A stretch of DNA of 64,000 nt from Nymphaea colorata. Its lineage: Eukaryota > Streptophyta > Magnoliopsida > Nymphaeales > Nymphaeaceae. The translations under genes were made by a program, and so were the position numbers. Positions 1 to 55,741 of this stretch are shown one piece after another (the stretch's first letter is position 1; each line of letters opens with the position of its first letter). The stretch spans positions 23,685,300-23,749,299 of the forward strand of contig NC_045142.1 of the NCBI RefSeq assembly GCF_008831285.2. Direction: 5' to 3'. Under the pieces are notes generated by a model. The model ran no database searches. It was not told the DNA's origin and worked only from the letters and a program-made list of their open reading frames with translations.

Positions 1-3000
1 CTTCTTGCAGACAACGAATCTGCTCATCTTCATCTTCCCCTAGCTCATATCTGCAACAAAATGGAGAAAGCAACGAAAAGAAGAACTGGATAAGCATGAC
101 AATAACTTTTCAAGGGTGCAAGCAACCAAAAATCAGAACCAATGACAGACGAAAAGCATCAGAGATATATGTTAGAAGGAAAAACTTAAAGTGGTCCTAG
201 TTGAGGAGTCAACAAACATAGACAGTCAAAAGCTGATGACTTTATTTCCACAAAATCACTTCTATTAGGGCCCAAAATTTGGTCATAACTGAATTTCCTG
301 ATTCAGGGTCAAACTTCGCAGAAATTTCACAGATATGGGAATATCTTTATCAATTGGCCCAAATTTCAAGTTAAAGCCTCTCTTTAGCTATGTGAAACAC
401 AATATATGTTTCCCTTTATTCATGGGATACAACATATGATCTTTAATTTTAAAGGGAAAACATAAAATTTTTTTAAAGGGAAAACATAAAATTTCCATTT
501 CCAAACACAATAAAATTTCTTTTTGATGGTTGTCAGCAAAAGTGAAGCTTATATCAGAAAATTCACCAACACAAAGCTCTTTCGAAGGTACAGAGACAGA
601 TTAGTAAGACAAGAACACATGTAAAATAATAATATTCTTTTCTCTATCCGTACATTTAATGCAATTTTAGTATAGCACTTCTTCTTCAAAGGTAAAAGTG
701 GCAATGCATGAGTCTTTAATCTGAAGACACACACACACACATACATCAGGCATGTAGGAGGTGTCCACATAAATTGATTAGTAACTGATATATAATCTGT
801 CATATTTAATGGTTTAAACGATCATCCTTTAATAAGTTTTCACTTGAAGAGACCCAGAAAAGATATAAACCTTTGTTACCATATTTGTCAATATACAAAA
901 TTCGTAATCAATATCTCAATGGTATATTTAGGAATTTTTAAATATAAAACCCAAACCGTAATTAAAAATTTACTACTAATCTAATCTACTTTGTTAATTG
1001 AACAATGTCTAACCATATGTATTGAGGAAAAAAGATAGAAGTTTGTGGCCGTTAAGACGTGTTTATATTCAGTATTAGGCTTGAGAGGGCACTTGTGTAA
1101 TAATGTTTCTTTTTAATGACTTTCTTGTAACTTTTCCCTCTCCTCTAGTCTATATAAGGAGGAGTTAGGGATTCCTTCGAGGTTAATCAAAATTAGTTCT
1201 CTTAAATTTATCATGGTATCAGAGCCCCAGCCGTCTCCTCCTGAGCGAGTTGTCGCCGACTGAGCGGCGCCAACCGCCGCCTGATCGGCGTCAGCTGCCG
1301 CCGCCCGACCCAGCCCTGCCCATTGCCGCCCGACCCATCCCTGCTGCCCCTCGTCGCCCTGCCCATTGCCGCCTGCCGCCGTCCTGCCCATCGCCGCCGT
1401 CCGATCGTTTGTTGTTGTCCGACCGTCGCCTCAGCCTGCCTGTCTGCTATCCCTCAGCCCGCCTGCGCCTCCTCCGCCGTCCGCCTGCGCCGCAGCCGCG
1501 TGTGCACTCTGCCGTTGCTCCGCCCAGCAGACTGAACGCCTGCGCCCGTTGCTGCTTCGCCTGTTCTGCCCGCATCCTTCTGTTGTTTCTTTCGTTCAGT
1601 CTGCTCTCTTTTACACAGCCGCCTTCTCGTTCAGGTCAACATGTCTCGTCTGATTGAGTATTGGTTGCTATCATCTTTATGATCTGTTCGTAGTTATATA
1701 CATGTGATTGTATATTTCTACGCTTCTTATTCCATGGCTCGGTTTCCTCCTTTTTTTTTGAGTTCAAAGATGTTTGAAATTAGTAGTGGAGCTAACACCT
1801 CTTCCTTTGTATCGTCGGGAGAGATGAAGAGTTCCCCATTTTCCAGCATTATCACCAAAATGGATGGGGGTAATTACAAGATGTGGGCCATGCAAGTAAA
1901 AAGAACCTTGATCGCTCATGACAAGGAATATCTCATATTGGAGCCCGAGCCCGTACAGAAGGTTGGAAGATATACTACTTGGTTCAAAGATAATTCGTTG
2001 GTTATGGTATGGATTGTTGGTACTCTCTCTCAAGAAATTGCAAATGAAGTCTTGCACAAGGACAGTGCAAAGGATATGTGGGATTCCCTTGCTGCCACGT
2101 ATTCACAGGCGAGAAATGAAACGCGCATTATGCAGCTTCATCATGATATTCATCAGATGCGACAAGATGGCCGACCTCTTCACACTTATTATTCTAGTCT
2201 CAAGTCCATGTTTGAGAGACTGAATAGCTACTTTCCCGCATGCAAGTGTGAACAACAAAAGGCATACAGAGATATGCTTATGGTAGGGGTCTTTCTTTCT
2301 GGTTTAGACTCTGTTTATGAATCCGCAAAGAACCAAATGCTTACTAGTCCCTCGATTCCTCCTATTGATGAGGCTTACAGTAGGCTCAGCAGAATTCCGA
2401 TCTCTGCATCGACTGTTCCTGATACCACTTCTGCTATGCTTGCTACTCGTGGCAGAGGTGGACCCTTTTTTGCCAGAGGACGAGGGGGCCGTGGCCGTGG
2501 CAATACCCCTTCGCGCCCTGTATGTCAGTTTTGTCACCGCATTGGTCATACTGTGGATAAGTGTTGGCAGAAACATGGCCGTCCAGCTTTTGCAAATCAG
2601 ACTGTATCTACTGATTCTCCTGAGCAGCCTAAGCCTCAGCACACTGCCTCCTCCAGTGAGCTGAGCTGCATGTAGATGACATTCTCTCTCAGTTGAGGAA
2701 CTTGATTGGCGACAGAGCCCATCAAGCCCCTGGTCTGACCACTTCTACTGTTCCTACCGCTGCGAGTGCTTCTTCATCTGGTATGTATTTTGCCTGTACA
2801 GTCTGCTCTGCTACTGACACTACAGATTGGCTTATTGATTCTGGTGCATCGACACATCTCTGTGGGGATAAGGCGCAATTCACCTCTTACATCCCTACTC
2901 CACCGGGTCGTTCGGTTATTCTAGCAGATGGAAAATATTCACCAATTGTTGGACATGGAGAGGTCCAACTTACTTCATCATTGCCGCTGCAGCACGTTCT

Positions 3001-6000
3001 TCATGCACCAGAATTCCCCCATAGCCTACTTTCTATCAGTCAAATTACCAGAGAATTAAATTGTCGTGCTATATTTGACTCTTCCTCTCTTGTGTTTCAG
3101 GATATACTGACGGGCAGGGTGATTGGCAGTGGCCGTGAACAGGGAGGTCTCTAAAGGCTAGTGCATTGCTTTCCCTTTGCTGGATCTACCTCGTCGGGGT
3201 CGTCCTCATCCTCGGCTTATACTTGGCATTTACGTTTTGGACATCTCCCGTTTCATAAACTGCTGCATGTTCTCCCTCAGCTGTCTCATAAGTCGTCTTT
3301 TCAATGTGAGTCTTGTCAGTTAGGCAAACACCATCGGTCATCCTTTCCTCCGCGGTCCAGTAGAAGTAGCCACTCTGTGTTCGAGTTACTTCATTTTGAT
3401 GTTTGGGGCCCGAGTAGTACTCCTGACCTTCAGGATCATCGGTATTATCTTGTTGTTGTTGATGATTACAGTCGTGTTAGTTGGGTTTTTCTTATGAAAC
3501 ACAAATCTGAAGCGGGTCATGTAATAAAAAAATTTATCAATGAAATTCTGACTCAGTTTGATACTTGTGTCAAGATTGTGCGCTCTGACAATGCTCTTGA
3601 ATTATGTGCTTCCTCTTTAGAACAATTTTTCAGGGATAAGGGTATCATTCACCAAACTTCTTGTGCCTATACCTCTCAACAAAATGGGGTTGCTGAAAGA
3701 AAACACCGCCATATTCTTGATGTCGCCAGAACCATTATCATACACAGCCATGTTCCCCATTCTTACTGGGGAGATGCTGTTCTTACAGCATGCTATCTTA
3801 TTAATCGCATGCCGTCATCTGTGTTGGGAGATCTTATTCTTTTCTCTGTTCTTTTTCCTGACAGAGAATTGTTTTCTGTTGCCCCTCGTATTTTTGGCTG
3901 TGTTGCCTTTGTTCAGTTGCTTGGTCCTGGGAGAGATAAGTTATCTCCTCGGGTTATCAAAACGATCTTTGTTGGTTATTCCCGCACTCAAAAGGGATAT
4001 CACTGTTATGATCCTTCTACTCGTCGATATTATGTGAGTGCTGATGTTACATTTTTTGAGTCAACCTCTTATTTCTCTCCAAATGGAACTCAATTAAGGG
4101 TGCCTGAATTTAGTGATGAAGTCCACCTTCCTTTACCTCTCATGAGTTATCCACAACCCGTTGCTTCGCGTTTTGGGGCTATCTACAACGTCGCACTAAA
4201 CCTGTTCAACCTACCCACTGTGCTCCTGTGCCTTCACCCAGCACGCCCAAGGTACTTCCTGAACACACAAGTCCTGCTGACAATTCTTTATGTGATGATG
4301 ACACAGGGGACTCTCCAGAGCATGCTCCTGGTCCTCATATTAATGAACTTGATATGCCCATTGCTCAAAGGAAAGGCAAACGCAGTTGCACTTTGCATCC
4401 TCTCTCTGGTCATTTATCCATGGATAGACTTACTCCTACTTACCGACAGTTTGTCAAGGGACTGTCGGCTGTAGCTCTTCCACAGACTCCCATGGACGCT
4501 CTTTCTGATCCCAAATGGGTCGCAGCAATGCAAGAAGAGATGGATGCTCTTCAGTCTAGAGGCACCTAGACACTAGTTACTCCTTCATCTGATGCAGCTA
4601 TTGTTGGTTGCAGATGGGTATTTACTGTTAAATACAGAGCAGATGGCAGCATTGAGATATATAAGGCTCGCCTGGTTGCTAAAGGCTATACTCAGACTTA
4701 TGGGGTTGATTATTATGATACCTTCTCTCCTGTGGCACGACATGCTTCTTTACGGGTTCTTCTCGCTGTTGCAGTCAGCAAGAATTGGTCTCTATCACAG
4801 CTTGATGTCAAAAATGCCTTTCTGTATGGTGACCTACATGAAGAAGTGTATATGCAGCAACCACCAGGGTTTGTTGCTGAGGGGGAGTGTCAGAAAGTGT
4901 GCAGATTGAGAAAGGCAATTTATGGTCTGAAACAAAGTCCTCGAGCTTGGTTCCAAAAATTATCAGAGAATATTGAGAATGAAGGCTTCAGACGTTCTTC
5001 GACCGATCATTCCCTTTTTGTCAAGAAAACTTCTACAGGTACAGTGATAGTTCTTGTCTATGTTGATGATATCATTGTTACAGGGGATGATATTCAGGGA
5101 ATTTCCAACATCAAGGACATCCTTGGACGACACTTTGTCACCAAGGATCTTGGTGAGCTACGCTATTTCCTAGGTATTGAGTTTGCCAGAAATCAGAAGG
5201 GTCTTATCATGTGTCAAAGGAAATACGTTACTGATGTTTTGCAAGAGACAGGTATGCTAGGATGTCGACCTGCCTCTACACCCATGGACATCAATACTCG
5301 CTTGTATGATGATGATACTGAAGATGTTGATGCTAAACAATATAGAGGGATTGTTGGGAAGCTCCTATATATCACTGTTACTCGACCTGATATTGCCTAT
5401 GCTGTCAGCAGAGTGAGTCAATTTATGGATAAGCCCAAGAAAGTCCATTGGGATGCTGCTATGATGATTCTCAGGTATCTAAAAAATTCACCAGGAACAG
5501 AACTCTTCTTTCAAAATGGTACATCTCTCACTATATCTGTGTATGTTGATGCTGATTATGCGGGATGTCACCTTGACAGAAAATCCACTACTGGATTTTG
5601 TGTGTTTATTGGATCCAACTTGGTCACATGGAAGAGTAAGAAGCAGACTGTGGTTGCCAGATCAAGTGCAGAATCTGAGTATAGAGCTATGGCTCAGGCT
5701 ACTGCTGAAGTTATGTGGGTTAGATCTCTGATGTTGGATCTTACTGTGGAAGTGCCTCTTCTTATGCAATTGTTAGGTGATAACAAAGCTGCTCTGTTTA
5801 TTGCTAATAATCCTGCTTTCCATGAGAGAACCAAGCATGTTGAAGTAAATTGTCACTATACCAGAGACATGATTCAAAAGGGGTTTGTAAGTACCTCCCA
5901 TATTTCAACTACAGGGCAAACTGCTGATATTTTTACTAAAGCTCTTGCAAGAGGACCATTCCAAAGTTGTTGTTCCAAGTTGACCTTGTTTGACATATAC

Positions 6001-9000
6001 GCTCCAACTTGAGGGGAAGTGTTAAGACATGTTTATATTCAGTATTAGGCTTGAGAGGGCACTTGTGTAATAATGTTTCTTTTTAATGACTTTCTTGTAA
6101 CTTTTCCCTCTCCTCTAGTCTATATAAAGAGGAGTTAGGGATTCTTTCGAGGTTAATCAAAATTAGTTCTCTTAAATTTATCAGTGGCCTCACTTTATTT
6201 CATTTTCATGCTTAAATATGTCCTTGATAGTTTAATCCAACACCAGACTTCATTAACAACATATAGTGATCAGTTTAAGAAAGCAGTGCATTTGAACTGT
6301 GAATTTACATTGATGATATAAAGGCAACCGCAATGTTAAAAAATATGTATCACTTGCTGATGATCATGGTGTCACATCTGTAGGCTTGATACTTTCCTGA
6401 TCTAGGAGTGAGAAGGAAATTATAAAGTTGTGAATTCTGGAATAAAGAGTAAGAAATAAATCCTGTTGGCATCTGTCAATAAATTTTACTAAGTATGAAC
6501 ACAGTTTCGATGGATCTCCTGACAAGCATGGCATGTGAACGGTCCTCAGATGACAATACTTTGGAAGTCACACACATTCTTTATAAAGCAAATATATAAT
6601 CTCTTCCAAGTAACTTGATAGAATGAGAAAGCAGATTCAACCAAAAATCGGAAAATCAACCTATATAACTGAGAATTATCTGCCCCTATTGCTACAAGTT
6701 GAAGCAAAGCCAGTTCTACTTTTTTCCATCTTATTTATTTACCATCCAGGGTCTCTCATCTCATGCCAAATGATAGCAACTAAAGTAGAAAAAAATGAAA
6801 TTGAACACATACTCCTCATATCTTTTCTTAGAATGAGTAATGGACATTGCTTCCAAGAATGTGTCTGCCAACAAGCCCGCTTTCATTGCCCTGAACCCTG
6901 TATAAGAAATAGGGAGAAAAATTCCAGAGATTTCGACCACATCACCAGGCCCAACCTGAGAGGAAAAGCAATTAACTATTCAGAAACCAAGAAAAAAAAC
7001 ATTCTATGCCAACTACTTTCTATTTACCAAAGCCACAGAAATCAAACCTTTCTAGTTAGTTCTCCTCTTATATGAATAGTCAAAGATCGTGGCAGACAGC
7101 CTTTTGGAACATGTTGAGATAACTCTTGGATTTTTGCCTACAATAATGAGAAATGTCAAAGTGAAAGTAACCAATGTGAGATGAATAGTCATCTCAAACA
7201 TTAATTATGATCATATTCAAATCTCTGTTTTATTTTCCATTGTTCAGTGTACAGCTAGTCCCTTAAATTTGCATTTATTGGGTATGTCATAGTAAAAGCA
7301 AAGTACTGAATGCTTCTTAGATTCCTCAAGGTTTTTGAAACCCTGAAAGACAAATTTCATCAAGTATATAAAGAGATCACGATCAATCACTCACAGTGAA
7401 GGTGGTCCAGCAAGCCATCAAGTTCATTTAGTAAACCAAATTAATTTAGGTAAAGATTCAAGAACACAAGGAAAAGAGAAAACTGTAAAGATCTTAAAAA
7501 GGAAGCAGTTACAGCCTTTAGCCAATGTAATCTGCTTCTGAGTTTTTTGTATATAAAGTTCAACAGTGGAAAAATCATTCAATTCCTTGCACTGTGGAGC
7601 TTCCAGTGGCTGAGGCTTCACGGAATTTGATTATTGTGCTTGAACAAGCTAAATTCTACTGACAAATGCATGATTAATATCCTTTCCTGCAGAGTTTCAA
7701 AAAGGAACTCGGTAGTGATTGCATACCTCTTGAAACTTCATGAACTTCGAAGCTCTCAGCTGAAGGATTAAATTACCCTTTGCCTTGTTTGTTTTGCACT
7801 GGTTAGATGGACATTCAAATAGTGGCATGTAAACTCTAGCAGTGACCTCCTGTTTGTCCATAAAAAAGTTATTTTAAGAATAAGTCACAAGAGTATGCAA
7901 TGTGCATCATACTTTCTGAATACCAACCCACTGCTGGGTAGAGGTGCTAGTCAACCAATGTATCAGGCTATATAAGAATTTTAAGGCAAGATTCAGTTAA
8001 ATCCACATCAGAAAAGCCTCAGAGGGTTATTTATGAGTTACTAGAGAAGAGTCAAATGATAAACGGGGAAGAAATGCAAGAAAAGAATTCACAGCATCCT
8101 TGACCAAATCAGGCACCCAACTAACATGATCAACCACCTAATTACCATGGTAAATGCAGAAAAAAAATTGAACCTTGAAGAGGACATGTACCTGATAAAT
8201 TTCAAAGCCACATTCCTCACAAGTATAGACAGCAACTTGCATCAAAGGTTTCACATTTGAGCAACGTGTTACAAGGCCAGATACCTTTACTAGTTGACCA
8301 ATATATGAGGAATTAACCTCCCGTATAGTAAATGCCTTCTCCTTAGAGAAGGGCTTTATGGACACCTCACTGCAGCCAATGGACAAGCAAATCAGAACCT
8401 GTGTTGATATTCTAGTACTCGCAGCAACAGAAAAAGTGCAAACTCACCACATATTATTTTACAGTTCAACATGGATAAACATTAGGTTCACTAAATTTCT
8501 CAAAAAGGTAATTCAGAAAAAAATAACGTGCAATGCAGAAAAAGACAATATAATTACAAAAAGTACAGATGCACACTCTAATACAATAAGAAAAAATAAA
8601 AAATATATTTGGAAAGGGAAAATGGAGAAAGAAGTGAAAGCTTTGGAGCTGCAAAGGGTCAACTGCCGACTCACAATGTGAAGACCTATGACAACCCTAG
8701 AACATGTCTCAGGCAAAAAACCTTCAGCAAGCTTCCACCTGTAAAAGGCTTAGGCCTCTATTGATCAGATACCACAGCTTTCATGATAGTAAAAATGAAA
8801 GTCCTAGAGAATTATTTTCAAACATTACGTTTTTTCATTTTTTCCTAGTCAATTTTAATTATGACATTGAAGAAGCTTTTACTAGTTTAACTTGCTGAGG
8901 TAGGTTTCGGAAGAAAACTCATTCTTCAGAAATTTTAAAAGAGAAAACAGTTGCATGTCAGGAGAAGCACTTTAAAGAAATAAACACTCTCATTTGATTT

Positions 9001-11752: not shown

Positions 11753-12739
11753 ACTTATGCCACAAAAGCCCCTACGCAACTTACGGTTTTACAATTGTAA
11801 GAAGACACAGATTTCTGTCAAGCTTTCCGGGGCCAGGATGGGTCCGTTTATTAGGCGAGCAAACGGATCGGATACGTTCCGGATCCTTTTAGGTATAAAA
11901 GTCCGCATCAGATAGTTCAGAATAGAAATCCGGATCCGAACAAGATCCGAATAACGAGTCGGATCTGAATTTGAAATTTATATGAATTTCTACAAGTACA
12001 AGCCGGATCTGATTTATATAAACCCCCACATCTACATGCAACCGGTATCTCTAAATGGATTTGGATCCCAATCGACCTAGATCAAATGGGAACAAAATAT
12101 AACAGGCTCTTGAATAGACGTGGCTGAGACTATCCAATACACACTACAGCGAGTCCTAGACCCGATAAGGACTCGGTCGAGCCGTCTCAAGCTCGTTGCT
12201 CTTGTCGAAACCAAATGGATCTCAAACAAGAGCGAAGGTAGGTGTGGGCATTGTGTGGGCAATTGATCACATAGACTCACACATTTATTATCGTATTAAA
12301 ATTTCATAGTAGTTTTTTTTTTTTTTTGTTACATACACATGCTTGTTAAACATTTAAAACCATATAACTAGTGTCCCTTAGCCTAAATTTTGTAGTTTCA
12401 CCGTTTATCACATAATGACATGAGGTCCCAAATCTGAATTTGAAAGTAGCGGACATGACCTGAACTTGACCGGATAAGTTACAATTCAGGCCGGCGACCG
12501 CCAGAATGAGCCGGACCTACCAATTTAGCCATACATTCAGAACCCAAAAGCTTTAACAGATCCAACACGTTTTGACTCCTCCCATATTTGCACACAGTAT
12601 TTTGGATTTGAGAAAGATCCAGGATGAAACTCCACCGCAGGCTCGAATTGTACAAACGAATTTATTGGTTTGAATTTGGACCCGACCCGTAAAGTACCGC
12701 TATGAAAGGGAGAAGCATAACAAGAAAGAAAAGAAAAAG
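11753..12739. other. MCM7 upstream intergenic region
   Basis: No gene seen. The stretch 11860-12070 is rich in GGATC/GATCCG words (for example CGGATCCGAA repeated), suggesting an old degenerate repeat. A related copy of this whole region recurs at 20410-21300. Confidence 0.6.
12735..12739 (-). terminator. Pol III terminator of tRNA-His
   Basis: Five T residues on the minus strand, directly after the discriminator base of the tRNA. Confidence 0.75.
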
Positions 12740-12811
12740 TGTGGCTGCTGGGATTCGAGCCCAGGTCTCTACGGCCACAACGTAGAATTCTTACCACTAA
12801 ACTACAGCCAC
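12740..12811 (-). tRNA. tRNA-His (anticodon GTG)
   Basis: On the minus strand a 72-nt cloverleaf folds. The acceptor stem is GTGGCTG with CAGCCAC. The anticodon arm is CTACG-TTGTGGC-CGTAG with anticodon GTG. The T arm is CTGGG-CTCGAAT-CCCAG. Internal promoter boxes A and B are normal. There is no intron. A T5 run just downstream (complement of 12735-12739) is a Pol III terminator. The extra 5' G of tRNA-His is not encoded, as usual in eukaryotes. Confidence 0.93.
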
Positions 12812-14709: not shown

Positions 14710-17232
14710 TCAATATGATGGCACACCATAGACATTATTCTGCAACTCTGCTCCAGGCATTGACCCCACTAAATGACTGGATGTTCCCCAGGATGATGGA
14801 ACTATGTGTGCGTCTGAAGAGAGAGTTCCTGTAGCGTCTGGATTTTCAGAGACAATTTGGTACAGTGGGTAACAGTCTCCTTGCTGGGATGCATTCATGG
14901 AGGCACCAGTTGCACCAATGAGGGAACTCAGTGAATTCATTCCCATGATCATTTGCTGATTCTGATTGTTGCAGGATTCAGAGACAAGAGGTTCACAAAA
15001 CAAATGTCTGGCAATGCTTTCCAGAACTTCTTGATTTGCAGATATGTTCTCGGCCCTGTTTGTTGGAAAGGAGGGATAACAGGGAATGACATGTCCTTGA
15101 GAGAAATGGTTGACTTGGTTGCCAAATGTGATATTGCTTGGCATATTCAAGTATGAACCTTGAAAAGAATCGTGAATGTTACTGTAAGCTGGTTCATAAT
15201 ATTGTTCACATCCGCCCATGTACCCATCATCAGAATTACTGATACCCTGTTCTTCACTGTTAGGAGAATCCACCACTGCAATAATGGAGAAAGATATAAT
15301 GAAATCCTTGTTCTTTACATGTATGCAGGAAAAATGCAAAATGGACAAACAAATATATCGACTACGAGTCAGATGTCTCTGGCCTTTTTCCTAATTCTGA
15401 TCCTCCAGATGTGGACAGCGTGGCTATATTTTTCATGAAGAAGGCACAAATTTTGAGCCCCGAAATATGTATAAAAGTTCCAACTGATGTCTCAGGCCCC
15501 AAAACAGCAAGGTTGATTATTCGAGAAGAAATGCATGTAGATCCCATCAAATATAGCCACTGGTGTAGACCAGGTTTAGTAATCCAGACAAATAAATTGT
15601 TCCCCTTATAAACAACACTATTATATATAGTCAACATCTGAAACAGCTACTTGCGTACAATCAAAGTTTAATACCTGAACTTGGAGAAGCAGGGTCAAAA
15701 TCAAATGCAGATCTGACATGCTGAAAGTCTCCTTGATTGAATGAACTGCTTGCTCTTTGAGCTTGGACACACAACTGAACTGGTGGATGAAAAATCTCGT
15801 TTGAGATTTTTCTCCGAGTGTATGGAATAGTTGAATTATTCTGCAGCAGTAAATCGGAAAGATGACCTCCATGATCTCGATACTCCTGATTGCCTGTTTC
15901 AAAATATGGAGAAACAGAACTTGGAAAGTTGGCCTTAGATAACATATGCAGCCGTGAGTCACACTGTAGCATCTTTTCATAATGCTTCTCAAGAGTTCCT
16001 TCAGCAAATTGAATTAAGTGTCTCCTGTAGGAAGAAATTAAGAATATAGGCATCAGGAGAAACCAAACAAACGTATGAACACATTCACAGCAATATGCAA
16101 AGATCAAGTGCACAGAGATCAAAGTGCATGAAAAAGCACAAACTAACATACAAAGAAAAAGCTTATCGTGCATCACTTAAATGAAAATATTGAAAAGCGA
16201 TGTGTGACTTAACTTTTGCCATATTTACGCCTCTGAATGTTTTATGAGAAAAAGATGATGAAGGCAGACTAATACTAGCAACACTGAATGATAAATGTTC
16301 AACATGCACATGCTATATACCTGTACGTAACAGCTTGACCTCCTGTGAAATCATTTGCTGCTTGCCACAAAGTGTGCTTTCTAGGTTGAGGCTTTGTCTC
16401 ACTAAAGAAGTGGGGCACCTTAGACAGCTGAATTGAACAATATAACCCAAAGAATAAGATTTCTGTGGAAGTCCAATATGAAAGTTGCATATAGAGAAGC
16501 ATTTCATAAAAATGTCCAATACTAACCTCAATTTCCAACTGATCAGGATGATTTTGACGATATATAGTTCTAAGCGAAGTTATATCAGACCATTGGATCT
16601 CAATTTTACTTTTCAATCCTCCTTCCAGAACCTCCCATACAAGCTTGCGCTTAGCAAAGTAGCACTTAGCCACTAAGTCTCCGTCATACCTTGAAACCCG
16701 CTGTAACCATAAAATGTATAATAGTTCAGTAATCTGTCTGTTCAGCTAGCTGCTGTGTATAGAGACAAATAATAATCTGGGTTTCAAATTTTAGGGAGCT
16801 GACAACTTGGGTATTACCTCCCATGAACCTATTTTGAGAAAAGTTGCAGCGAAATTTGAAGCCTTCATCTTTTCTGCACTTGGAGTATTCAGAACTGCAT
16901 TGACTACCTTATCCATTACCATCTCATGTTGCAGACTCTGTTTTTCATCAGACTCTGGCGGTTGTTCTTGAGGTAGCTTTGCTTGAATGAGTTCCATAAA
17001 GGATGGTGTTATTGTCAATTTCAAACCGAGGGGACCTGGCTGAGTTGGTTCTTTCTCCACATCCAATTTTATCCGCTGCAAATTTAAATTCGAAAATCAA
17101 CTGCAGGTCATGTATTGGCAAAAATAAATTCAGCAATAAAGATGGCAAACTTGATATTTCAATTAATGCCAAACTTGTCAGCTTGAGGTGATGATCATCA
17201 AAGATACCAAAGTCCTCAATGGTATTTTCGTT
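14710..17232 (-). pseudogene. TRF2/HOY1 PH-like domain gene, copy A (no own first exon)
   Basis: Exons by eye: 17232 to about 17120 (exon 2, end uncertain), 16818-17075, 16527-16700, 16321-16427, 15675-16024 and 14710-15275. Exons 3-7 are open and join in phase. The PH-like core runs GSWE, then YDGDLVAKCYFAKRKLVWEV, KIEIQWSDITSLR, KPQPRKHTLWQAANDFTGGQ and RRHLIQFAEGTLEKHY; the tail is Ser/Asn/Gln-rich and ends YGVPSY. This matches a plant nuclear-type family of unknown biochemical role annotated with a TRF2/HOY1 PH-like domain (name from memory). Oddities: the original first exon is absent, and about 20 bp covering the exon 2 donor are deleted. The first codon of exon 3 is CGG where other copies have TGG, and Ser replaces Arg in the RET.PQPRKH motif. 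Possibly transcribed as a chimera; probably not a normal product. Confidence 0.65.
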
Positions 17233-18146
17233 CTGTTGCAGAAGGCACGTGCATGTTTCATTGCCAGGAGTAAGAAAAAAATGAAAACAGGGGCTAAGCA
17301 GGACTCTATTTTGTACTAGAAATACGCTGAAATGTTCAAATTCAATTCTCTCAATTTGTGAGTCATTGCATTTGGTCTTAGTCTGTATGAACAGCTAGAT
17401 CAGGTTATCCTACCAGCAGAGGGCAAGGACACTACTCATGAACTGTCTTTTTTTCCTTAAAAAAATCTAAACAGTAGGCCATCTTAACAATTACAGACCA
17501 GTCATCTTGCATGCAACTGATAAAAAATAACTCCTTATTGAGTTCAAGTTTTAATAGCACAGCAGAAGCTCTGCTATTATGGAAGCAATAAAAAATTGAC
17601 ACTGTCCACCAATCTCTTAGCATGCAACTGAGAGCCATTGTGCCCAAAAATCATGCAGCAAAAGCCTGCCATAGCTCCCAATTGAGAGCCATCGTGCCCA
17701 AAAGTCATGCAGCAGAAGCTTGTATAACCTACACATTTAAAAATTTAATATTCTCATCAGCTTCAGTTTTAGGGTGGAGAGGACAGCTATGCAAAGACAG
17801 ATGGTAAAGAAGAAAGATGATTCATAAAATGTAGAAACCTCCTAAGAAACACAAGAAGCCGAAGCAGGAACATTTTTATTTTCACAGGTGTAGGCTCAAA
17901 ATGGAATTTTATGAAATGATAGTGTCCACGAAGTGCACTGATTGACTAATTAAAGTCGGAAAAAGCCAGTTACAAGATATTTAGTTCAATCTTGTCTCTC
18001 TGATAAGCATGCATGGTATGAGCATTAAACCATTTGGATAGATCCGGCATAAGGTCACCAGCACAAATCTTCACAAAACTTCAGCAATAGCGTAACTCCT
18101 CAAATTATAGACAACCACACGCTAAATGTTAATGCATCAGCCATAC
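17233..18146 (-). other. Upstream segment of copy A between exon 2 and the methyltransferase fragment
   Basis: Shared by copies C, E, G and I, and by J as far as about 61750. The AT-rich, intron-like sequence includes a small local duplication (GAGAGCCATnGTGCCCAAAA at about 17630 and 17684) present in A only. A 71-codon minus frame at 17432-17647 is conserved between copies, but only as expected for recent duplicates. Confidence 0.5.
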
Positions 18147-18320
18147 CTTCAGCTGATTACCAAAACCACTCCCCTGGAAGCGTCTCTTCAACTCCAAAGC
18201 CATGCGGGGATCCATCTCAACAGCGATGACTGTCTTTGCAACATTCAGAAGCTTACTTGTAAGATTTCCAGTACCAGGACCAATCTCTAAAATAACATTA
18301 AATTTGATACAGTATAGAAA
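18147..18320 (-). pseudogene. KsgA/Dim1-type rRNA adenine dimethyltransferase exon fragment, copy A
   Basis: The minus strand encodes VILEIGPGTGNLTSKLL followed by VIAVEMDPRMALELKRRFQG. This is the S-adenosylmethionine-binding motif I region (E-I-G-P-G-T-G-N-L) and motif II acidic residue of the Dim1/KsgA family, which dimethylates two adenines near the 3' end of small-subunit rRNA. It ends at a good donor (NQLK then GTATGG). No catalytic NIPY motif or other exon is present, so this is a captured single exon. The exact 5' boundary is unclear. Its donor is in phase 0, the same phase as exon 2 of the downstream gene. Confidence 0.8.
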
Positions 18321-19339
18321 AGGTACAACCTACAAGTTTACAACCCCAATGACTTGTATGTGGATAATTATTCTAGATGAACATAAGCTTGTTAAAGTAA
18401 CGAAGAGGAGAAGCCTCCAGCACCAGACAACAACATAAGATGCATGATGATAAAACAACCCAACTAAGAACAATGAATTTAGCAATGTAAAGCAAAATAA
18501 GCACTATATATCCCATAAAACTCTCTTATTCCCTTTCTTCTGCAGAAAACTGTACAACTAAAAGAAAGGAACAATTCTGGACAGCATTCGTTGTTTCTTT
18601 TTCACGAGCTACAAGTTCACTCGAAAATCACAAAATAACCTTGTTCGAACCTTTCGAGCTATGCTAATCAACCTACCAAATTAAACAAATACCATTGATG
18701 CTCAACCAAACGCCTACCGCCAAATTAAGCAAATACAATTGATGCTCAACCAAACACCTACTACCATCAGCAAGAACAATGTTTTCCTACTCCTCCATGT
18801 TGAGCAATAGCGAGAGCAAGCAATCGAGATAGAGAGAGAAAGAGGGTGAGAGTGACGAAGGTCCGCCGCCAGCCCTTACGCACAAAGCGAAGGAGAGGGC
18901 CAACGGCCCTTCGTCAAAGGCGGGAGAGAGAGAGAGATAACCACGCATAGAAAGAGAAAAGGAAGCGAAGGCTGCCGGCGGCCGGCCCTCAAGCGAGAGA
19001 GAGAGATACCTGAGCGGCGCCGGCGGCCAGAATCAAGAGCGAGGGGGCGTCGCGCGTCAGCCGTGGAATCAAGAGAGAGGGAGGAAGAGAGATGCCTGGA
19101 GAGATGCAGGGTTTCTTAACAGAAATCCGTTTGGGTCGGTGACAGTTACTCTTTTAAACCTTTTAACAAATGAAAAAAATTATAAAAAGCCCCCTGACAA
19201 CTACAAAAATATCACATGGGCGCCTAAGAATTTCCAACTAATTCTCAAACAGCCTTCACACTTGTCTTTCTTATAGCACAGCACTTATATGAATAGATTT
19301 TTGCCGCGCGCCTAGCAATATCAAAACTGAAGGTTAGAG
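18321..19339 (-). other. 5'-end-like region of copy A with GA-rich tracts
   Basis: Holds GA microsatellites (18820-18960), an inverted repeat GGGCCAACGGCCC near 18896, CCGGCGGCCGGCC near 18974 and a possible non-coding first exon at about 19008-19120. That exon has no ATG on the minus strand and ends GCCGCTCAG before GTATCTC. Copy A keeps about 590 bp (18310-18895) that C, E, G and I have lost by one shared deletion. At 19262-19370 lies a single copy of the sequence later amplified into the satellite at 54.5 kb. Confidence 0.45.
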
Positions 19340-25575: not shown

Positions 25576-28114
25576 TCAATATGATGGCACACCATAGACA
25601 TTATTCTGCAACTCTGCTCCAGGCATTGACCCCACTAAATGACTGGATGTTCCCCAGGATGATGGAACTATGTGTGCGTCTGAAGAGAGAGTACCTATAG
25701 CGTCTGGATTTTCAGAGACAATTTGGTACAGTGGGTAACAGTCTCCTTGCTGGGATGCATTCATGGAGGCACCAGTTGCACCAATGAGGGAACTCAGTGA
25801 ATTCATTCCCATGATCATTTGCTGATTCTGATTGTTGCAGGATTCAGAGACAAGAGGTTCACAAAACAAATGTCTGGCAATGCTTTCCAGAACTTCTTGA
25901 TTTGCAGATATGTTCTCGGCCCTGTTTGTTGGAAAGGAGGGATAACAGGGAATGACATGTCCTTGAGAGAAATGGTTGACTTGGTTGCCAAATGTGATAT
26001 TGCTTGGCATATTCAAGTATGAACCTTGAAAAGAATCGTGAATGTTTACTGTAAGCTGGTTCATAATATTGTTCACATCCGCCCATGTACCCATCATCAG
26101 AATTACTGATACCCTGTTCTTCACTGTAAGGAGAATCGACCACTGCAATAAGGGAGAAAGATATAATGAAATCCTTGTTCTTTACATGTATGCAGGAAAA
26201 ATGCAAAATGGACAAACAAATATATCGACTACGAGTCAGATGTCTCTGGCCTTTTTCCTAATTCTGATCCTCCAGATGTGGACAGTGTGGCTATATTTTT
26301 CATGAAGAAGGCACAAATTTTGAGCCCCGAAATATGTATAAAAGTTCCAACAGATGTGTCAGGCCCCAAAACAGTAAGGTTGATTATTCGAGAAAAAATG
26401 CATGTAGATCCCATCAAATATAGCCACTGGTGTAGACCAGGTTTAGTAATCCAGACATATAAATTGTTCCACTTATAAACAACACTATTATATATAGTCA
26501 ACATCAGAAACAGCTACTTGCGTACAATCAAAGTTTAATACCTGAACTTGGAGCAGCAGGGTCAAAATCAAATGCAGATCTGACATGCTGAAAGTCTCCT
26601 TGATTGATTGAACTGCTTGCTCTTTGAGCTTGGACACACAACTGAACTGGTGGATGAAAAATCTCGTTTGAGATTTTCTCTGAGTATATGACATACTTGA
26701 ATTATTCTGGTGCAGTAAATGGGAAAGATGACCTCCATGATCTCGATACTCCTGATTGCCTGTTTCAAAATATGGAGAAACAGAACTTGGAAAGTTGGCC
26801 TTAGATATCATACGCAGCCGTGAGTCACACTGTAGCATCTTTTGATAATGCTTCTCAAGAGTTCCTTCAGCAAATTGAATTAAGTGTCTCCTGTACGAAG
26901 AAATTAAGAATATAGGCATTAGGAGAAACCAAACAAACGTATGAACACATTCACAGCAATATGCAAAGATCAAGTGAACAGAGCTCAAAGTGCATGAAAA
27001 AGCACAAACTAACATACAAAGAAAAAGCTTATCGTGCATCACTTAAAATGAAAATATTGAAAAGCGATGTGTGACTTAACTTTTGCCATATTTACGCCTC
27101 TGAATGCTTTATGAGAAAAAGATGATGAAGGCAGACTAATACTAGCAACACTGAATGATAAATGTTCAACATGCACACGCTATATACCTGTACGTAACAG
27201 CTTGACCTCCTGTGAAATCATTTGCTGCTTGCCACAAAGTGTGCTTTCTAGGTTGAGGATTTGTCTCACGAAAAAAGTGGGGCACCTTTGACAGCTGAAT
27301 TGAACAATATAACCCAAAGAATAAGATTTCTGTGGAAGTCCAATATGAAAGTTGCATACAGAGAAGCATTTCATAAAAATGTTCAATACTAACCTCAACT
27401 TCCAACTGATCAGGATGATTTTGACGATATATAGTTCTAAGCGAAGTTATATCAGACCATTGGATCTCAATTTTACTTTTCAATCCTCCTTCCAGAACCT
27501 CCCATACAAGCTTGCGCTTAGCAAAGTAGCACTTAGCCACTAAGTCTCCGTCATACCTTGAAACCCGCTGTAACCATAAAATGTATAATAGTTCAGTAAT
27601 CTGTCTGTTCAGCTAGCTGCTGCGTATAGAGACAAATAATAATCTGGGTTTCAAATTTTAGGGAGCTGACAACTTGGGTATTACCTCCATGAACCTATTT
27701 TGAGAAAAGTTGCAGCGAAATTTGAAGCCTTCATCTTTTCTGCACTTGGAGCATTCAGAACTGCATTGACTACCTTATGCATTACCATCTCATGTTGCAG
27801 ACTCTGTTTTTCATCAGACTCTCGTGGTTGTTCTTGAGATAGATTTGCTTGAATGAGTTCCATAAAGGATGGTGTTTTTGTCAATTTCAAACCGAGGAGA
27901 CTTGGCTGAGTTGATTCTTTCTCCACATCCGATTCTATCCACTGCAAATTTTAAATTCGAAAATCAACTGCAGGTCATGTATTGGCAAAATTAATTCAGG
28001 ACACTGACCAAAATGAAGTATAAAGATGGCAAACTTGATATTCAATTAATGCCAAACTTGTCAGCTTGAGGTGATAATCATCAAAGATACCAAAGTCCTC
28101 AAAGGAATTTCGTT
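25576..28114 (-). pseudogene. TRF2/HOY1-like gene, copy C
   Basis: Exons at 28009-28114, 27685-27941, 27394-27567, 27188-27294, 26542-26890 and 25576-26142. Compared with copy G it has a one-base insertion in exon 7 (near 26047) and one-base deletions in exon 6 (near 26675) and at the exon 3 donor (near 27688), giving three frameshifts. Some may be sequence errors, since quality appears to fall from about 27.6 kb onward. There is no own exon 1. Confidence 0.75.
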
Positions 28115-28950
28115 CTGTTGCAGAAGGCACGTGCATGTTTCATTGCCAGGAGTAAGAAAAAAATGAAAACAGGGGCTAAGGAGGACTCTATTTTGTACTA
28201 GAATACGCTGAAATGTTCAAATTCAATTCTCTTACTTTGTGAGTCATTGCATTTGGTCTAGTCTGTATGAACAGCTAGATCAGGTTATCCTACCACAGAG
28301 GGCAAGGACACTACTCATGAACTGTCTTTTTTTCCTTAAAAAAATCTAAACAGTAGGCATCTTAAGAATTACAGACCAGTCATCTTGCATGCAACTGATA
28401 AACAATAACTCCTATAGAGTTCAAGTTTTAATAGCACAGCAGAAGCTCTGTTATTATGGAAGCAATCGAAAATTGACACTGTCCACCAATCTCTTAGCAA
28501 TGCAACTGAAGCCATCGTGCCCAAAAATCATGCAGCAGAAGCTTGTATAACCTACACATTTAAAATTTAATATTCTCATCAGCTTCAGTTTTAGGGTGGA
28601 GAGGACAGCTATGCAAGACAGATGGTAAAGAAGAAAGATGATTCATAAAATGTAGAAACCTCCTAGAAACACAAGAAGCCGAAGCAGGAACATTTTATTT
28701 TCACAGGTGTAGGCTCAAAATGGTACTTTATGAAATGATAGTGTCCACGAAGTGCACTGATCGACTAATTAAAGTAGGAAAAAGCCAGTTACAAGATATT
28801 TAGTTCAATCTGTCTCTGATAAGCATGCAGGTATGAGCATTAAACCATTTGGATAGATCCGGCATAAGGTCACCAGCACAAAACTTCAGCCATAGCGTAA
28901 CTCATCAAATTATAGACAACCGCACGCTAAATGTTAAGCATTAGCCATAC

Positions 28951-29112
28951 CTCCAACTGACTACAAAAACATCCCCTGGAAGCGTCCTGCAACTCCAAAA
29001 CCACGCGGGGATCCATCTCAACAGCGATGACTGTCTTTTCGACATTCAGAAGCTTACTGGTAAGATTTCCAGTACCAGGACCAATCTCCAAAATAACTTT
29101 AAAGTTGATACA
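28951..29112 (-). pseudogene. Dim1-type methyltransferase exon fragment, copy C
   Basis: Contains EIGPGTGNLTSKLL and VIAVEMDPR, with one-base losses relative to E and G. The region between this fragment and the GA-rich 5' segment is deleted compared with copy A. Confidence 0.75.
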
Positions 29113-29489
29113 GTAAAGAAAGAGAGGGCCAACGGCCCTTCGTCAAAGGGGGCAGAGAGAGAGATTGAGAGAGAGATAACCACTCATATAAAGAGAAAAG
29201 GAAGCGAAGGCTGCCGGCGGCCGGCCCTCAAGCGAGAGAGAGAGATACCTGAGCTGCGCCGGCGGCCAGAATCGAGAGCAAGGGGACTTTCACGCGTCAG
29301 CCGTGGAATCGAGAGAGAGGGAGAAAGAAGATTTCTGGAGAGATGCACTAACAGAAATTCTTTGGGTCGGTGACAGTTACTCTTTTAAACAAATGAAAGA
29401 AATTATAACAAGCCCCCTGACAACTACCAAATAGCACATGGGCGCCTAAGAATTTCTCACACACCCTTCACACTTGTCTTTCTTATAGC

Positions 29490-30480
29490 ATGGCACTTAT
29501 ATGAAACCTGAGGCCTAGTGCAATTTGATCCGGACCGAATCAGATCTGCCTTAAAATACGGAACCGAATCTGATGTATTCCATCCAATACGACAGATCCG
29601 GACTCTATAATAACCATATAATAATGCCCCTTAGCCTGAATTTGTAGTTTAACATTTTATCACATGAGGTCCCATATCTGAATTTGAAAGTAGCGGACCT
29701 GACCTGAGCTTGACCGGATAAGTTACAATTCAGGCCGGCGACGGCCGGAATGAGACGGACCTACCAATGTACTGATGGTCGTCTCTTAATTACTTATCAG
29801 AGTTTCATGACGATGTTCACGTACTTAGAATTCAGCTGTCTGTTTTGAAGCATTATTCAGTTCGTTTATTAGATCTTTCCTCCCCATGTCCCTGTCTTAA
29901 GATTCTACTCGATGTGCACTTTGAGAAGCATGTCTAACAGCGATTTGGTGAATTATATATATATTATATACATATATGCCGCGATTCCACAACAGATCAA
30001 CATTTATATGGTTATGCACATGGAGGGAGATAAAAAATAATGAAATGGGTTATAGAGAGGAGTATTCCATTTTCAAACAAATTTTGGGATCATATTGCAA
30101 TTTCAAATAAAAACATGAAGTACAAGAATTTCTTCTACAACCCATATTTTCTTTCACAGGCTTGTTTTTTGTGAGCCATTTATTTCATTTGTCATCTTTG
30201 CTTTGATATACATATAAATTTCTTTGTAGCAGTGTTTGATGATGACCTTCTGCATTGCAGTAAGACTTTTTCCGTTTAGGGGGCATATGGTTGCTTAGGA
30301 TTTAAATCCAATAATGTGATGTAGATCTGACGTGACATTTTTTTTGTTGATATGACAAAAATTTGTGGTAAAATATAAGTATTCATCAAACTAAGATCTT
30401 AGTTTGACGTAAGACCCACATTTGAGATTATTATTATAGTTTTCAAATCAATCATGAGATGTCAAATGTGAGGCATCAAC
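29490..30480. other. Mosaic intergenic module, unit 1
   Basis: Composed of pieces resembling 20670-20780, 21140-21290, 12810-12900, 21400-21560 and 13000-13360. It carries a short TA microsatellite near 29955 and a right-truncated MITE-like element. No gene. Near-identical modules lie at 37060-38050 and 46015-47005. Confidence 0.6.
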
Positions 30481-31761
30481 TAATCGTTAGGAAGCATGAG
30501 AATGAGACGGGTAACGTGGAAGTGCCGGTGTCTGGGACGGCTGCTCTTGGAAGTTGCTGCGACAACTTCGTTTTAATGAATGCAAGGAAGAAACTGCTAG
30601 AAGAGAGCAGCCACATGCTCCCACTCTAGGGACACATGGTGTCTTCCGTGAAGAAGACTACACGAGTACTCAATCCAAGCAACAGAGCTCGCAGATTTGT
30701 CCCTTTCCGTCGCCATTGTAACATGACAACTGTTGGAAAAAGTATTCTGGAGACTCTTCTTTCCGACTTTTGGACGTGTTAAAATCCGATAGTTGAAAAC
30801 GGAAATCAAACAATTCGGATTCTCATTCAATAGAAAAACCGGCCGTTAAAATCTGGTGGGAGAAAGACATTTTTCAGAAGATGATTAATCCGACGAAAAG
30901 AAAGCAAAATTAGATCTTGTCAGCAACTTTTTCTGAAGAATCTGTGACAGTGTGAAAATCTTGTGCCTTCTGATTCTCAGGAAGGGCACTTGCTTCTCGG
31001 CTTCCACAGAAAAATGACAGCATAAGCATTAGCAGTTGCGCTGCCTCTCGACATGTCATTTCCTTTGAGTCTAGCTATATATTCTTTTTCGATAGCTGAT
31101 GCAGCTGATATATGCGGGTGAATTGGAAGTGATCTAGGAGTTGCAATTTCATTCATCAAATTTTTGTTGGCACAACGATTGTGGGGTATGTTCATCATCT
31201 GTAAACTTTCTTTCATTTGAACATGGCTGTTTGGGAGTGGAAGTCCTAACTGCTGCTGGTTATGCGAGGTTCAGCATGCACTAGAGCTTAAAATGTACTT
31301 TTTTTTTAAAAATAATCATAAGGTTTTGGCGTTTCATTGTCAATATGTCAACAGAAATTGAGAAAGATGAAGAAAAAATACGTTCAAAATATTTCATGCT
31401 ATACTGCGGTCCAAGCTTCAAAAAATACATTAAAAAATTTCCTGTGGGGCATGAAACCCAATTATCAGTCACTAATGCACCATGGAGAACAAATGAAAAG
31501 AGCACCAAACTATGGAGCTAAACTTCCTAAGACCCACAAATCTGTGGCAACAAAAAAATTATTAACTGAATCTTGACAAAATGAAAATGCGGGAAGCAAC
31601 GGCTAGTTGCACTGTCGCCAACAAAAATGGATAATCCAGAAACAGAATGGGAAGTCGAAACATCAAAATGTTGTATGTGTCTCGGCATTGATGTCAAGTT
31701 AAATGAAGCAACTCTGCAAGGTGAACTCTGCTGCCTGGACTAACAAAAGAGAAAAACCGAC

Positions 31762-31976
31762 TCAGTCATATGATGGCACACCATAGACATTATTCTGCAA
31801 CTCTGCTCCAGGCATTGACCCCACTAAATGACTGGATGTTCCCAGGGATGATGGAACTATGTGTGTGTCTGAAGAGAGAGTTCCTGTAGCGTCTGGATTT
31901 TCAGCGACAATTTGGTAGAGTGGGTAACAGTTCCTTGCTGGGATGCATTCATGGAGGCACCAGTTGCACAATGAGG
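31762..31976 (-). pseudogene. Last exon of TRF2/HOY1-like gene, copy D, cut by the gap
   Basis: Only the 3' part of exon 7 is present before the run of N. Several single-base deletions against F and H disturb the frame, including one at the stop codon. It is the expected partner of F and H in unit 1. Confidence 0.75.
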
Positions 31977-32076
31977 NNNNNNNNNNNNNNNNNNNNNNNN
32001 NNNNNNNNNNNNNNNNNNNNNNNNNNNNNNNNNNNNNNNNNNNNNNNNNNNNNNNNNNNNNNNNNNNNNNNNNNNN
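31977..32076. other. Assembly gap, 100 N
   Basis: Exactly 100 N, the conventional length for a gap of unknown size. It falls within the tandem array. By alignment to unit 2, roughly 1.5 kb should lie here: the rest of copy D exon 7, intron 6, the MITE junction and the start of a 3' flank block. Confidence 0.95.
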
Positions 32077-36503: not shown

Positions 36504-36670
36504 CTCCAACTGACTACAAAAACCACTCCCCTGGAAGCGTCCCTGCAACTCCAAAACCACGCGGGGATCCATCTCAACAGCGATGACTGTCTTTTCGACA
36601 TTCAGAAGCTTACTGGTAAGATTTCCAGTACCAGGACCAATCTCCAAAATAACTTTAAGTTTGATACAGT
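36504..36670 (-). pseudogene. Dim1-type methyltransferase exon fragment, copy E
   Basis: Open frame with VILEIGPGTGNLTSKLL and VIAVEMDPR, ending SQLE at a GTATGG donor. It differs from copy A by several substitutions (for example Arg-to-Gly in the RRFQG segment). Single captured exon with no catalytic region. Confidence 0.78.
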
Positions 36671-38050: not shown

Positions 38051-39351
38051 CTAATCGTTAGGAAGCATGAGAATGAGACGGCGGTAACGTGGAAGTGCCG
38101 GTGTCTGGACGGCTGCTCTTGGAAGTTGCTGCGACCAACTTCGTTTTAATGAATGCAAGGAAGAAACTGCTAGAAGAGAGCAGCCACATGCTCCCCACCT
38201 CTAGGGACACATGGTGTCTTCCGTGAAGAAGACTACACGAGTACTCAATCCAAGCAACAGAGCTCGCAGATTTTGTCCCTTTCCGTCGCCATTGTAACAT
38301 GACAACTGTTGGAAAAAGTATTCTGGAGACTCTTCTTTCCGACTTTTGGACGTGTTAAAATCCGATAGTTGAAAACGGAAATCAAACAATTCGGATTCTC
38401 ATTCAATCAGAAAAACCGGCCGTTAACTCTGGTGGGAGAAAGACATTTTTCAGAAAGATGATTAATCCGACGAAAAGAAAGCAAAATTAGATCTTGTCAG
38501 CAACTTTTTCTGAAGAATCTGTGACAGTGTGAAAATCTTGTGCCTTTCTGATTCTCAGGAAGGGCACCTTGCTTCTCGGCTTCCACAAGAAAATGACAGC
38601 ATAAGCATTAGCAGTTGCGCTGCCTCTCGACATGTCATTTCCTTTGAGTCTAGCTATATCATTCTTTTTCGATAGCTGATGCAGCTGATATATGCGGGTG
38701 AATTGGAAGTGATCTAGGAGTTGCCAATTTCATTCATCAAATTTTTGTTGGCACAACGATTGTGGGGTATGTTCATCATCTGTAAACTTTCTTTTCATTT
38801 GAACATGGCTGTTTGGGAGGTGGAAGTCCTAACTGCTGCTGGTTATGCGAGGTTCAGCATGCACTAGAGCTTAAAATGTACTTTTTTTTAAAAATAATCA
38901 TAAGGTTTGGCGTTTCATTGTCAATATTACAGTCAACAGAAAATGAGAAAGATGAAGAAAAAAATACGTTCAAAATATTTCATGCTATACTGCGGTCCAA
39001 GCTTCAAAAAATACATTAAAAAATTTCCTGTGGGGCATGAAACCCAATTATCAGTCACTAATGCACCATGGAGAACAAATGAAAAGAGCACCAAACTATG
39101 GAGCTAAACTTCCTAAGACCCACAAATCTGTGGCAACAAAAAAATTATAACTGAATCTTGACAAAATGAAAATGCGGAAGCAACGGCTAGTTGCACTGTC
39201 GCCAACAAAAATGGATAATCCAGAAACAGAATGGGAAGTCGAAACATCAAAATGTTGTATGTGTCTCGGCATTTGATGTCAAGTTAAATGAAGCCAACTC
39301 TGCAAGGTGAACTCTGCTGCCTGGACTAACAAAAGAGAAAAACCGACTCAG

Positions 39352-39917
39352 TCAATATGATGGCACACCATAGACATTATTCTGCAACTCTGCTCCAGGC
39401 ATTGACCCCACTAAATGACTGGATGTTCCCCAGGATGATGGAACTATGTGTGTGTCTGAAGAGAGAGTTCCTGTAGCGTCTGGATTTTCAGCGACAATTT
39501 GGTAGAGTGGGTAACAGTCTCCTTGCTGGGATGCATTCATGGAGGCACCAGTTGCACCAATGAGGGAACTCAGTGAATTCATTCCCATGATCATTTGCTG
39601 ATTCTGATTGTTGCAGGATTCAGAGACAGGAGGTTCACAAAACAAATGTCTGGCAATGCTTTCCGAAACTTCTTGATTTGCAGATATGTTCTCGGCCCTG
39701 TTTGTTGGAAAGGAGGGATAACAGGGAATGACATGTCCTTGAGAGAAATGGTTGACTTGGTTGCCAAATGTGATATTGCTTGGCATATTCAAGTATGAAC
39801 CTTGAAAAGAATCGTGAATGTTACTGTAAGCTGGTTCATAATATTGTTCACATCCGCCCATGTACCCATCATCAGAATTACTGATACCCTGTTCTTCACT
39901 GTAAGGAGAATCCACCA
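39352..39917 (-). pseudogene. Last exon only of TRF2/HOY1-like gene, copy F
   Basis: Intact 566-nt exon 7 of the B type (EVSESIARHLFCEPPVSES). It joins at about 40078 to intergenic/MITE sequence, as in B and H. Confidence 0.85.
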
Positions 39918-44607: not shown

Positions 44608-45457
44608 CTGTTGCAGAAGGCACGTGCATGTTTCATTGCCAGGAGTAAGAAAAAAATGAAAACAGGGGCTAAGGAGGACTCTATTTTGTACTAGAAATAC
44701 GCTGAAATGTTCAAATTCAATTCTCTTACTTTGTGAGTCATTGCATTTGGTCTTAGTCTGTATGAACAGCTAGATCAGGTTATCCTACCAGCAGAGGGCA
44801 AGGACACTACTCATGAACTGTCTTTTTTTCCTTAAAAAAATCTAAACAGTAGGCCATCTTAAGAATTACAGACCAGTCATCTTGCATGCAACTGATAAAC
44901 AATAACTCCTTATAGAGTTCAAGTTTTAATAGCACAGCAGAAGCTCTGTTATTATGGAAGCAATCGAAAATTGACACTGTCCACCAATCTCTTAGCATGC
45001 AACTGAGAGCCATCGTGCCCAAAAATCATGCAGCAGAAGCTTGTATAACCTACACATTTAAAAATTTAATATTCTCATCAGCTTCAGTTTTAGGGTGGAG
45101 AGGACAGCTATGCCAAGACAGATGGTAAAGAAGAAAGATGATTCATAAAATGTAGAAACCTCCTAAGAAACACAAGAAGCCGAAGCAGGAACATTTTTAT
45201 TTTCACAGGTGTAGGCTCAAAATGGTACTTTATGAAATGATAGTGTCCACGAAGTGCACTGATCGACTAATTAAAGTAGGAAAAAGCCAGTTACAAGATA
45301 TTTAGTTCAATCTTGTCTCTCTGATAAGCATGCATGGTATGAGCATTAAACCATTTGGATAGATCCGGCATAAGGTCACCAGCACAAAACTTCAGCCATA
45401 GCGTAACTCATCAAATTATAGACAACCGCACGCTAAATGTTAATGCATTAGCCATAC

Positions 45458-45622
45458 CTCCAACTGACTACAAAAACCACTCCCCTGGAAGCGTCCCTGC
45501 AACTCCAAAACCACGCGGGGATCCATCTCAACAGCGATGACTGTCTTTTCGACATTCAGAAGCTTACTGGTAAGATTTCCAGTACCAGGACCAATCTCCA
45601 AAATAACTTTAAGTTTGATACA
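45458..45622 (-). pseudogene. Dim1-type methyltransferase exon fragment, copy G
   Basis: Same sequence as the copy E fragment, with SAM motif EIGPGTGNL and a phase-0 donor toward exon 2 of copy G, 851 bp further down the minus strand. Confidence 0.78.
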
Positions 45623-55735: not shown

Positions 55736-55741
55736 GCTTCT

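Follow-up and report, generated by a model that had tools for sequence, protein, structure and literature searches.

Tandem duplication across neighbouring TRF2/HOY1-like and DIM1 genes in Nymphaea colorata: an array of probably decaying chimeras

Chimeric genes formed by duplication across two neighbours have been described in Drosophila. In Sdic of Drosophila melanogaster, a segmental duplication across the adjacent genes sw and AnxB10 was followed by fusion via deletions and by tandem expansion, and the resulting genes impact sperm competition (PMC7475035). In D. yakuba, tandem duplication of two neighbours was likewise the cause of chimeras, which were surveyed in population lines with RNA-seq (PMC5460883). 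The array that we describe here, from a 64,000-nucleotide window of the Nymphaea colorata genome (C5:23685300-23749299), resembles Sdic and is of a kind already known: a duplication extended over two adjacent genes, with fusion through deletions and tandem expansion, as in Sdic (PMC7475035). Unlike Sdic, it involves other genes in a plant-type genome, its substitution patterns look neutral, and it is known from DNA alone; compared with the D. yakuba survey, it is a multi-copy array read in one assembly. A literature search on tandem duplication and chimeric genes in Nymphaea colorata found no paper on this locus, as judged by titles and the starts of abstracts.

At the DNA level the two neighbouring genes are indeed fused, in five copies. 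With a probability of about 0.78, we propose that a tandem duplication joined the neighbours, that the start codon of the DIM1 part was deleted, that the fused units were re-duplicated, and that the DIM1 remnant is now at most a leader in copies that evolve without detectable constraint and are most likely decaying. The locus offers a clean case of tandem duplication joining neighbours: the two parents remain at the ends of the array, and there is an internal contrast in that the parental J lineage shows constraint while the fused copies do not detectably do so. It also carries a warning: an intron phase that fits and a frame that is open are weak grounds for inferring a new chimeric protein.

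Read as it is transcribed, on the minus strand, the array runs J, I, G, E, C, A and then the native DIM1 gene. J encodes a TRF2/HOY1 PH-like protein, as do the downstream parts of the chimeric copies (PF24818, E 8.9e-58 for exons 3-6 of copy G). J exon 1 (61873-62019) has 49 codons, or 8 more with an upstream in-frame ATG, and a phase-0 donor (AAG/GTTTGC; in nucleotide motifs, the slash marks the splice site). That the chimeric copies lack a J-type exon 1, as originally predicted, is borne out: this exon matches only itself in the array and its left flank, and a 346-bp stretch around it has a single match in our genome searches, which covered 407.8 Mb in 783 contigs. Exons 2-7 lie at 59005-61410 in J, 14710-17232 in A, 42066-44607 in G and 50590-53131 in I; the frame is open to a stop at 42066 in G and at 50590 in I, and in A exons 3-7 are open and the exon-2 donor of the J model is missing through an 18-bp gap. 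The C-terminal frame of J is shifted by 2 nt near 59005-59030 (minus strand) relative to A, G and I, so that J ends early and a longer C-terminus is common to the other three. Among the 33 matches listed for a 295-residue genome query, all of at least 83% identity fall in the array, and paralogous TRF2/HOY1-like loci on C3 and C9 have 35-71% identity. A search of these paralogues for exons 1 and 2 found no clear match, so J, G and I are the basis of the exon-2 model (108 nt), the donor of which is missing in A. A literature search on the HOY1/TRF2 PH-like domain in plants found no paper.

Where J has exon 1, the five chimeric copies have a DIM1-type exon, and here the original prediction holds in most particulars. 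The exon reads EIGPGTGNLTSKLLN...EMDPR...QLK/E on the minus strand of the window in five of five copies, at 18147-18287 in A, 28951-29088 in C, 36504-36644 in E, 45458-45598 in G and 53959-54099 in I. In A it comprises 47 codons from EIGPGTGNL, with its phase-0 donor at 18147 and an RrnaAD match in the genome search; I also has 47 codons, E is identical to G, and C has 46 codons and indels that are probably assembly noise. The identification as DIM1 is supported by colinearity with the native gene and by the Pfam RrnaAD match of the copy G peptide (E 9.2e-9). The frame holds up to the donor ([AG]AG/GTATGG) in all five copies, the indels of C summing to -3 nt; the exon is thus open in four copies and net in frame in the fifth, in keeping with the predicted open or nearly open state. 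With exons placed as in the J gene model, the phase-0 start of exon 2 lies at 17232 (A), 28114 (C), 35653 (E), 44607 (G) and 53131 (I), and the distance from donor to exon 2, predicted as about 0.9 kb, measures 828-915 bp; the splice originally given as an example joins 45458 to 44607 in copy G.

The full-length donor gene, which the original prediction had left to be located, is found on the same strand some 6 kb to the left of the window. A genome search with Pfam RrnaAD gave 10 matches, including a fuller gene that is matched at C5:23678361-23678810 and 23679249-23679461. In our own two-exon model read from the DNA (C5:23679524-23678058, minus strand), its frame is open over 348 aa, and the single TAG within its RrnaAD match is the acceptor TAG at the border of exon 3. 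Among PDB sequences the gene best matches 6w6c, a dimethyladenosine transferase (residues 18-250 of that entry, E 9.8e-113), placing the source of the array's 5' part among the DIM1/DIMT1 rRNA dimethyladenosine transferases. The exon-2 donor, AATCAGTTGAAG/GTATGG, is that of the array copies. A DIM1 paralogue on C6 was rejected as donor, as its sequence differs and the C5 neighbour is colinear with the array (574 bp at 93.7%). Compared with DIM1/DIMT1 proteins, the array fragment lacks a start codon, the NIPY motif and the C-terminus; it holds no complete methyltransferase domain, its 47 codons (46 in C) beginning at motif I. NIPY, which like motif I we take to be a methyltransferase motif, is encoded in native exon 3, of which the array keeps 8 nt.

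DIM1 similarity does not end at the exon donor. When native DIM1 is aligned in six rows with the five chimeric copies, colinearity begins in the 5' flank and continues as far as GTTATACA, taking in the 5' UTR with its donor (CAG/GTATCT), the truncated exon 2, intron 2, the intron-2 acceptor and 8 nt of exon 3. The DIM1 piece is the 5' part of the neighbouring complete DIM1 gene and not an isolated captured exon, and the idea of a "captured" SAM-binding exon is not supported. In copy A, where an interval of 18147-19120 had been proposed for that exon, 18147-18287 is coding-like and the remainder corresponds to DIM1 intron 1 and 5' UTR; the whole upstream piece (18288-19293) includes a TATA-like element near 19190, a 5' UTR donor (CTCAG/GTATCT) and intron 1, with putative promoter and transcript limits. 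Intron 2 of A spans 17729-18146, and its acceptor precedes the exon-3 base at 17728 (GTTATACA). In copy G, the 5' flank and 5' UTR segment aligned with native DIM1 lies at 45628-46018, and intron 2 (45050-45457, 408 bp) retains the DIM1 acceptor, with 45049 as the next base. All five copies share a 345-bp deletion that has taken away the start codon and N-terminal part of the native coding sequence, and C, E, G and I have a further loss in common (572 bp when measured on A, 638 bp on DIM1). Downstream of the exon-3 remnant stand about 95 bp with no match to either J or native DIM1, followed by J intron 1, so that the breakpoint is not placed to the base; a 113-bp query across this junction has six matches in the genome search, all in the array.

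Colinearity shows how the array arose. The ancestral order, in the direction of transcription, was the TRF2/HOY1-like gene (J), a spacer and DIM1. A tandem duplication with its ends in J intron 1 and about 8 nt inside DIM1 exon 3 set J exons 2-7 behind the 5' part of DIM1, which comprises the promoter side, the 5' UTR, exon 2 and intron 2 with its acceptor; a single 345-bp deletion removed the start codon and N-terminus; and the unit was afterwards re-duplicated, with C, E, G and I losing their further 572 bp and the full DIM1 gene persisting as the last array member. At each junction, such a duplication brings the beginning of the downstream gene in front of the end of the upstream one; it also leaves both parents at the ends and makes the spacers between units related. 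The array has this form. The 5' part of one neighbour is joined to the 3' part of the other in the predicted order, J with its exon 1 stands at one end and full DIM1 at the opposite end, and the spacer between A and DIM1 matches that between I and J (for example, 1,117 bp at 93%), that between A and C (936 bp at 92.5%) and that between G and I (177 bp at 87%).

The assembly limits how far the five copies can be counted separately. A 100-N gap (31977-32076) lies between C and E, and array length around it is uncertain. Over 3.5 kb, copy C differs from G by 30 one-base deletions and 12 substitutions, and copy E differs from G by 2 one-base gaps and 0 substitutions. With such differences on either side of a gap, the independence of all five copies is not assured, and we set C and E aside as independent evidence; from their sequence, the frame breaks of C resemble assembly noise, and E could be a false duplicate or one of very recent origin. 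The solid chimeric copies are A, G and I. We also observed that the C side of the gap is a noisy stretch (26511-31976 compared), with near-identical sequence on the E side, and that the exon 7 side, the 3' end of the gene, is re-duplicated within units (39020-40078 and 41719-42792, 97% alike); these duplicates probably belong to the copies first labelled B, D, F and H.

Substitutions in the DIM1 exon resemble those of unselected sequence. Relative to native DIM1, synonymous and nonsynonymous changes number 3 and 2 in A, 0 and 6 in G, and 1 and 2 in I, or 4 and 10 in sum, with C left out for its indels and E counted once with the identical G. Under neutrality, nonsynonymous changes are expected to make up 0.71-0.77 of non-stop changes, which the 10 to 4 ratio fits; omega is about 0.85, with an interval (0.24-3.70) that means low power. 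In simulations the exon stays open in 94% of cases with 2 random substitutions and in 83% with 6, and we accordingly rejected the open frame as coding evidence, such frames being expected by chance.

Exons 3-7 afford more sites. We counted singletons at 53 of the 62 variable sites, setting aside 9 non-singletons and leaving out C and E (four of six copies used), and found 10 synonymous and 9 nonsynonymous changes in J (a count that includes the stem between J and the chimeras), 3 and 7 in I, 1 and 9 in G, and 3 and 11 in A. Silent changes are in excess in J (one-sided p 0.009 against 0.25), and no such excess appears in these exons of A, G and I taken together (7 silent and 27 nonsynonymous, p 0.78); the J lineage differs from A+G+I by Fisher's test (p 0.030), with omega estimates of about 0.30 (0.11-0.83) and 1.31 (0.56-3.55), respectively. 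Pairwise dN/dS is 0.46 for J-I and 0.55 for J-G, both of which include the J branch, and 1.15 for I-G. Exons change about as fast as introns in the six pairs among J, I, G and A, as in J-I (3.09% in exons and 3.16% in introns) and I-G (2.10% and 1.58%). The 439 codons of exons 3-7 stay open in A, G and I; in G and I, exon 2 is open too, and the splice dinucleotides expected from the J model are present. These open frames are compatible with chance, the probability of no stop in 34 random substitutions being about 0.17 if each has a stop chance of 0.05, a value that makes weak constraint possible as well. Neither constraint nor adaptive change is detected in the DIM1 exon or in exons 3-7 of A, G and I, within omega intervals that are wide for both. 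The proposed young chimeric gene family stands as chimeric DNA in a tandem family whose members have diverged little; what it lacks is detectable constraint, and the copies are probably decaying chimeras.

If the units are transcribed at all, the DIM1 promoter and 5' UTR may drive RNA through them, the DIM1 remnant would be at most a 5' leader with short upstream ORFs, and any protein would be an N-terminally truncated TRF2/HOY1-like product, possibly begun at MELIQ, whose Met lies in exon 3 and ahead of the PH-like domain. A promoter swap with function would go further: the DIM1 promoter and 5' UTR would drive a working truncated protein, the DIM1 coding remnant being incidental. In its favour are the TATA-like element in all five copies, the retained 5' UTR donor, the intact PH-like domain in G and the open exons 3-7 in A, G and I, together with the finding, in D. 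yakuba, that tandem-duplication chimeras often change expression (24 of 76 upregulated; PMC5460883). We nonetheless consider functional promoter capture unlikely, given the 27 nonsynonymous to 7 silent changes in A, G and I, exon rates near intron rates, the I-G dN/dS of 1.15 and a 5' flank that has diverged from native DIM1 by 11% in A, 14% in E and G and 27% in I (where it is partly poorly aligned).

Under the original prediction, the DIM1 exon would be spliced in phase to exon 2 to give a chimera possibly starting at EMDPR; in its full form, this reading has the protein made and used. The phases do match, the exon is open in every chimeric copy but C, where it is net in frame, and a frame of 498 codons without a stop results in G and I. 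By the general rule for the strength of start contexts, EMDPR is well placed (G at -3, G at +4). Splicing is an obstacle: in G the proposed splice covers 850 bp and passes the native acceptor at 408 bp, so that a nearer, retained DIM1 acceptor must be skipped. Normal DIM1 splicing to that acceptor yields GTT ATA CAA GCT TCT GCT GCA TGA, or VIQASAA followed by a stop, in five of five copies. Translation initiation raises further difficulties. Among A, E, G and I, the copies read for AUGs and start contexts, none has an in-frame Met before EIGPGTGNL without an intervening stop; the first usable one is that of EMDPR, downstream of EIGPGTGNL, so that a product begun there lacks this motif. Directly upstream in the same four copies, an AUG (CTGAATG) opens an overlapping ORF in another frame, although its weak context and the strong one at EMDPR would make leaky scanning possible. 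The modelled frame ends after 97 codons in A, 39 in C and 241 in E; those of C and E perhaps reflect assembly noise, and that of A depends on the exon-2 model. A Pfam scan of the modelled G product found PF24818 only (E 2.9e-57), with no RrnaAD match up to E 0.1, and the changes in the DIM1 exon are 10 nonsynonymous to 4 synonymous. The fit of phases is supported, and a translated SAM-binding exon is not: its start codon is deleted in all copies, its native splice leads to a stop and its first Met lies beyond EIGPGTGNL. On this sequence evidence an in-frame chimeric protein is doubtful and its use by the cell quite improbable; nothing found suggests that the methyltransferase piece is part of a working protein.

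Still less probable is a young, expressed plant family of the Sdic type in which the DIM1 5' part would supply both a new promoter and a fast-changing N-terminal tail. Such a tail would accord with the 6 nonsynonymous and 0 synonymous changes in 141 bp in the G/E lineage and with an A-G divergence that reaches 11/141 in the DIM1 exon and exceeds the 9/408 of intron 2 (p 0.007, uncorrected and on few sites). With counts entered by hand, 6/141 vs 3/408 gives a Fisher p of 0.011, and polarised counts for G are 5/141 (plus 2 multiply changed sites) vs 2/375. No such excess appears for A-I (p 0.62) or G-I (p 0.21), and the A-G excess supports only this reading.

Capture of the exon by a transposable element or retrogene insertion is scarcely credible, and was rejected, because, despite a Copia-like element nearby, the DIM1 introns are still there, the segment has the order and orientation of the neighbouring gene, the spacers match, and the junction piece has no match elsewhere in the genome search. 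That element (1051-6183, plus strand), which we assign to Copia from its motifs, has 163-bp terminal repeats 98% alike and reverse transcriptase-like ORFs, and it interrupts the spacer between copy A and native DIM1. A tRNA-His(GTG), perhaps organelle-derived, is predicted at 12739-12811 (minus strand) by ARAGORN with the bacterial code. The J-I spacer holds a fragment at about 57421-57720 (minus strand) that resembles the C-terminal part of an MCM helicase, presumably MCM7 (MCM_lid, 23.8 bits, below the cut-off of 27.4), and the DNA of this spacer also occurs upstream of native DIM1. Directly upstream of the DIM1 segment of copy I are six 202-bp direct repeats with 98% matches (54524-55737), and related sequence (about 69%) is likewise present upstream of native DIM1.
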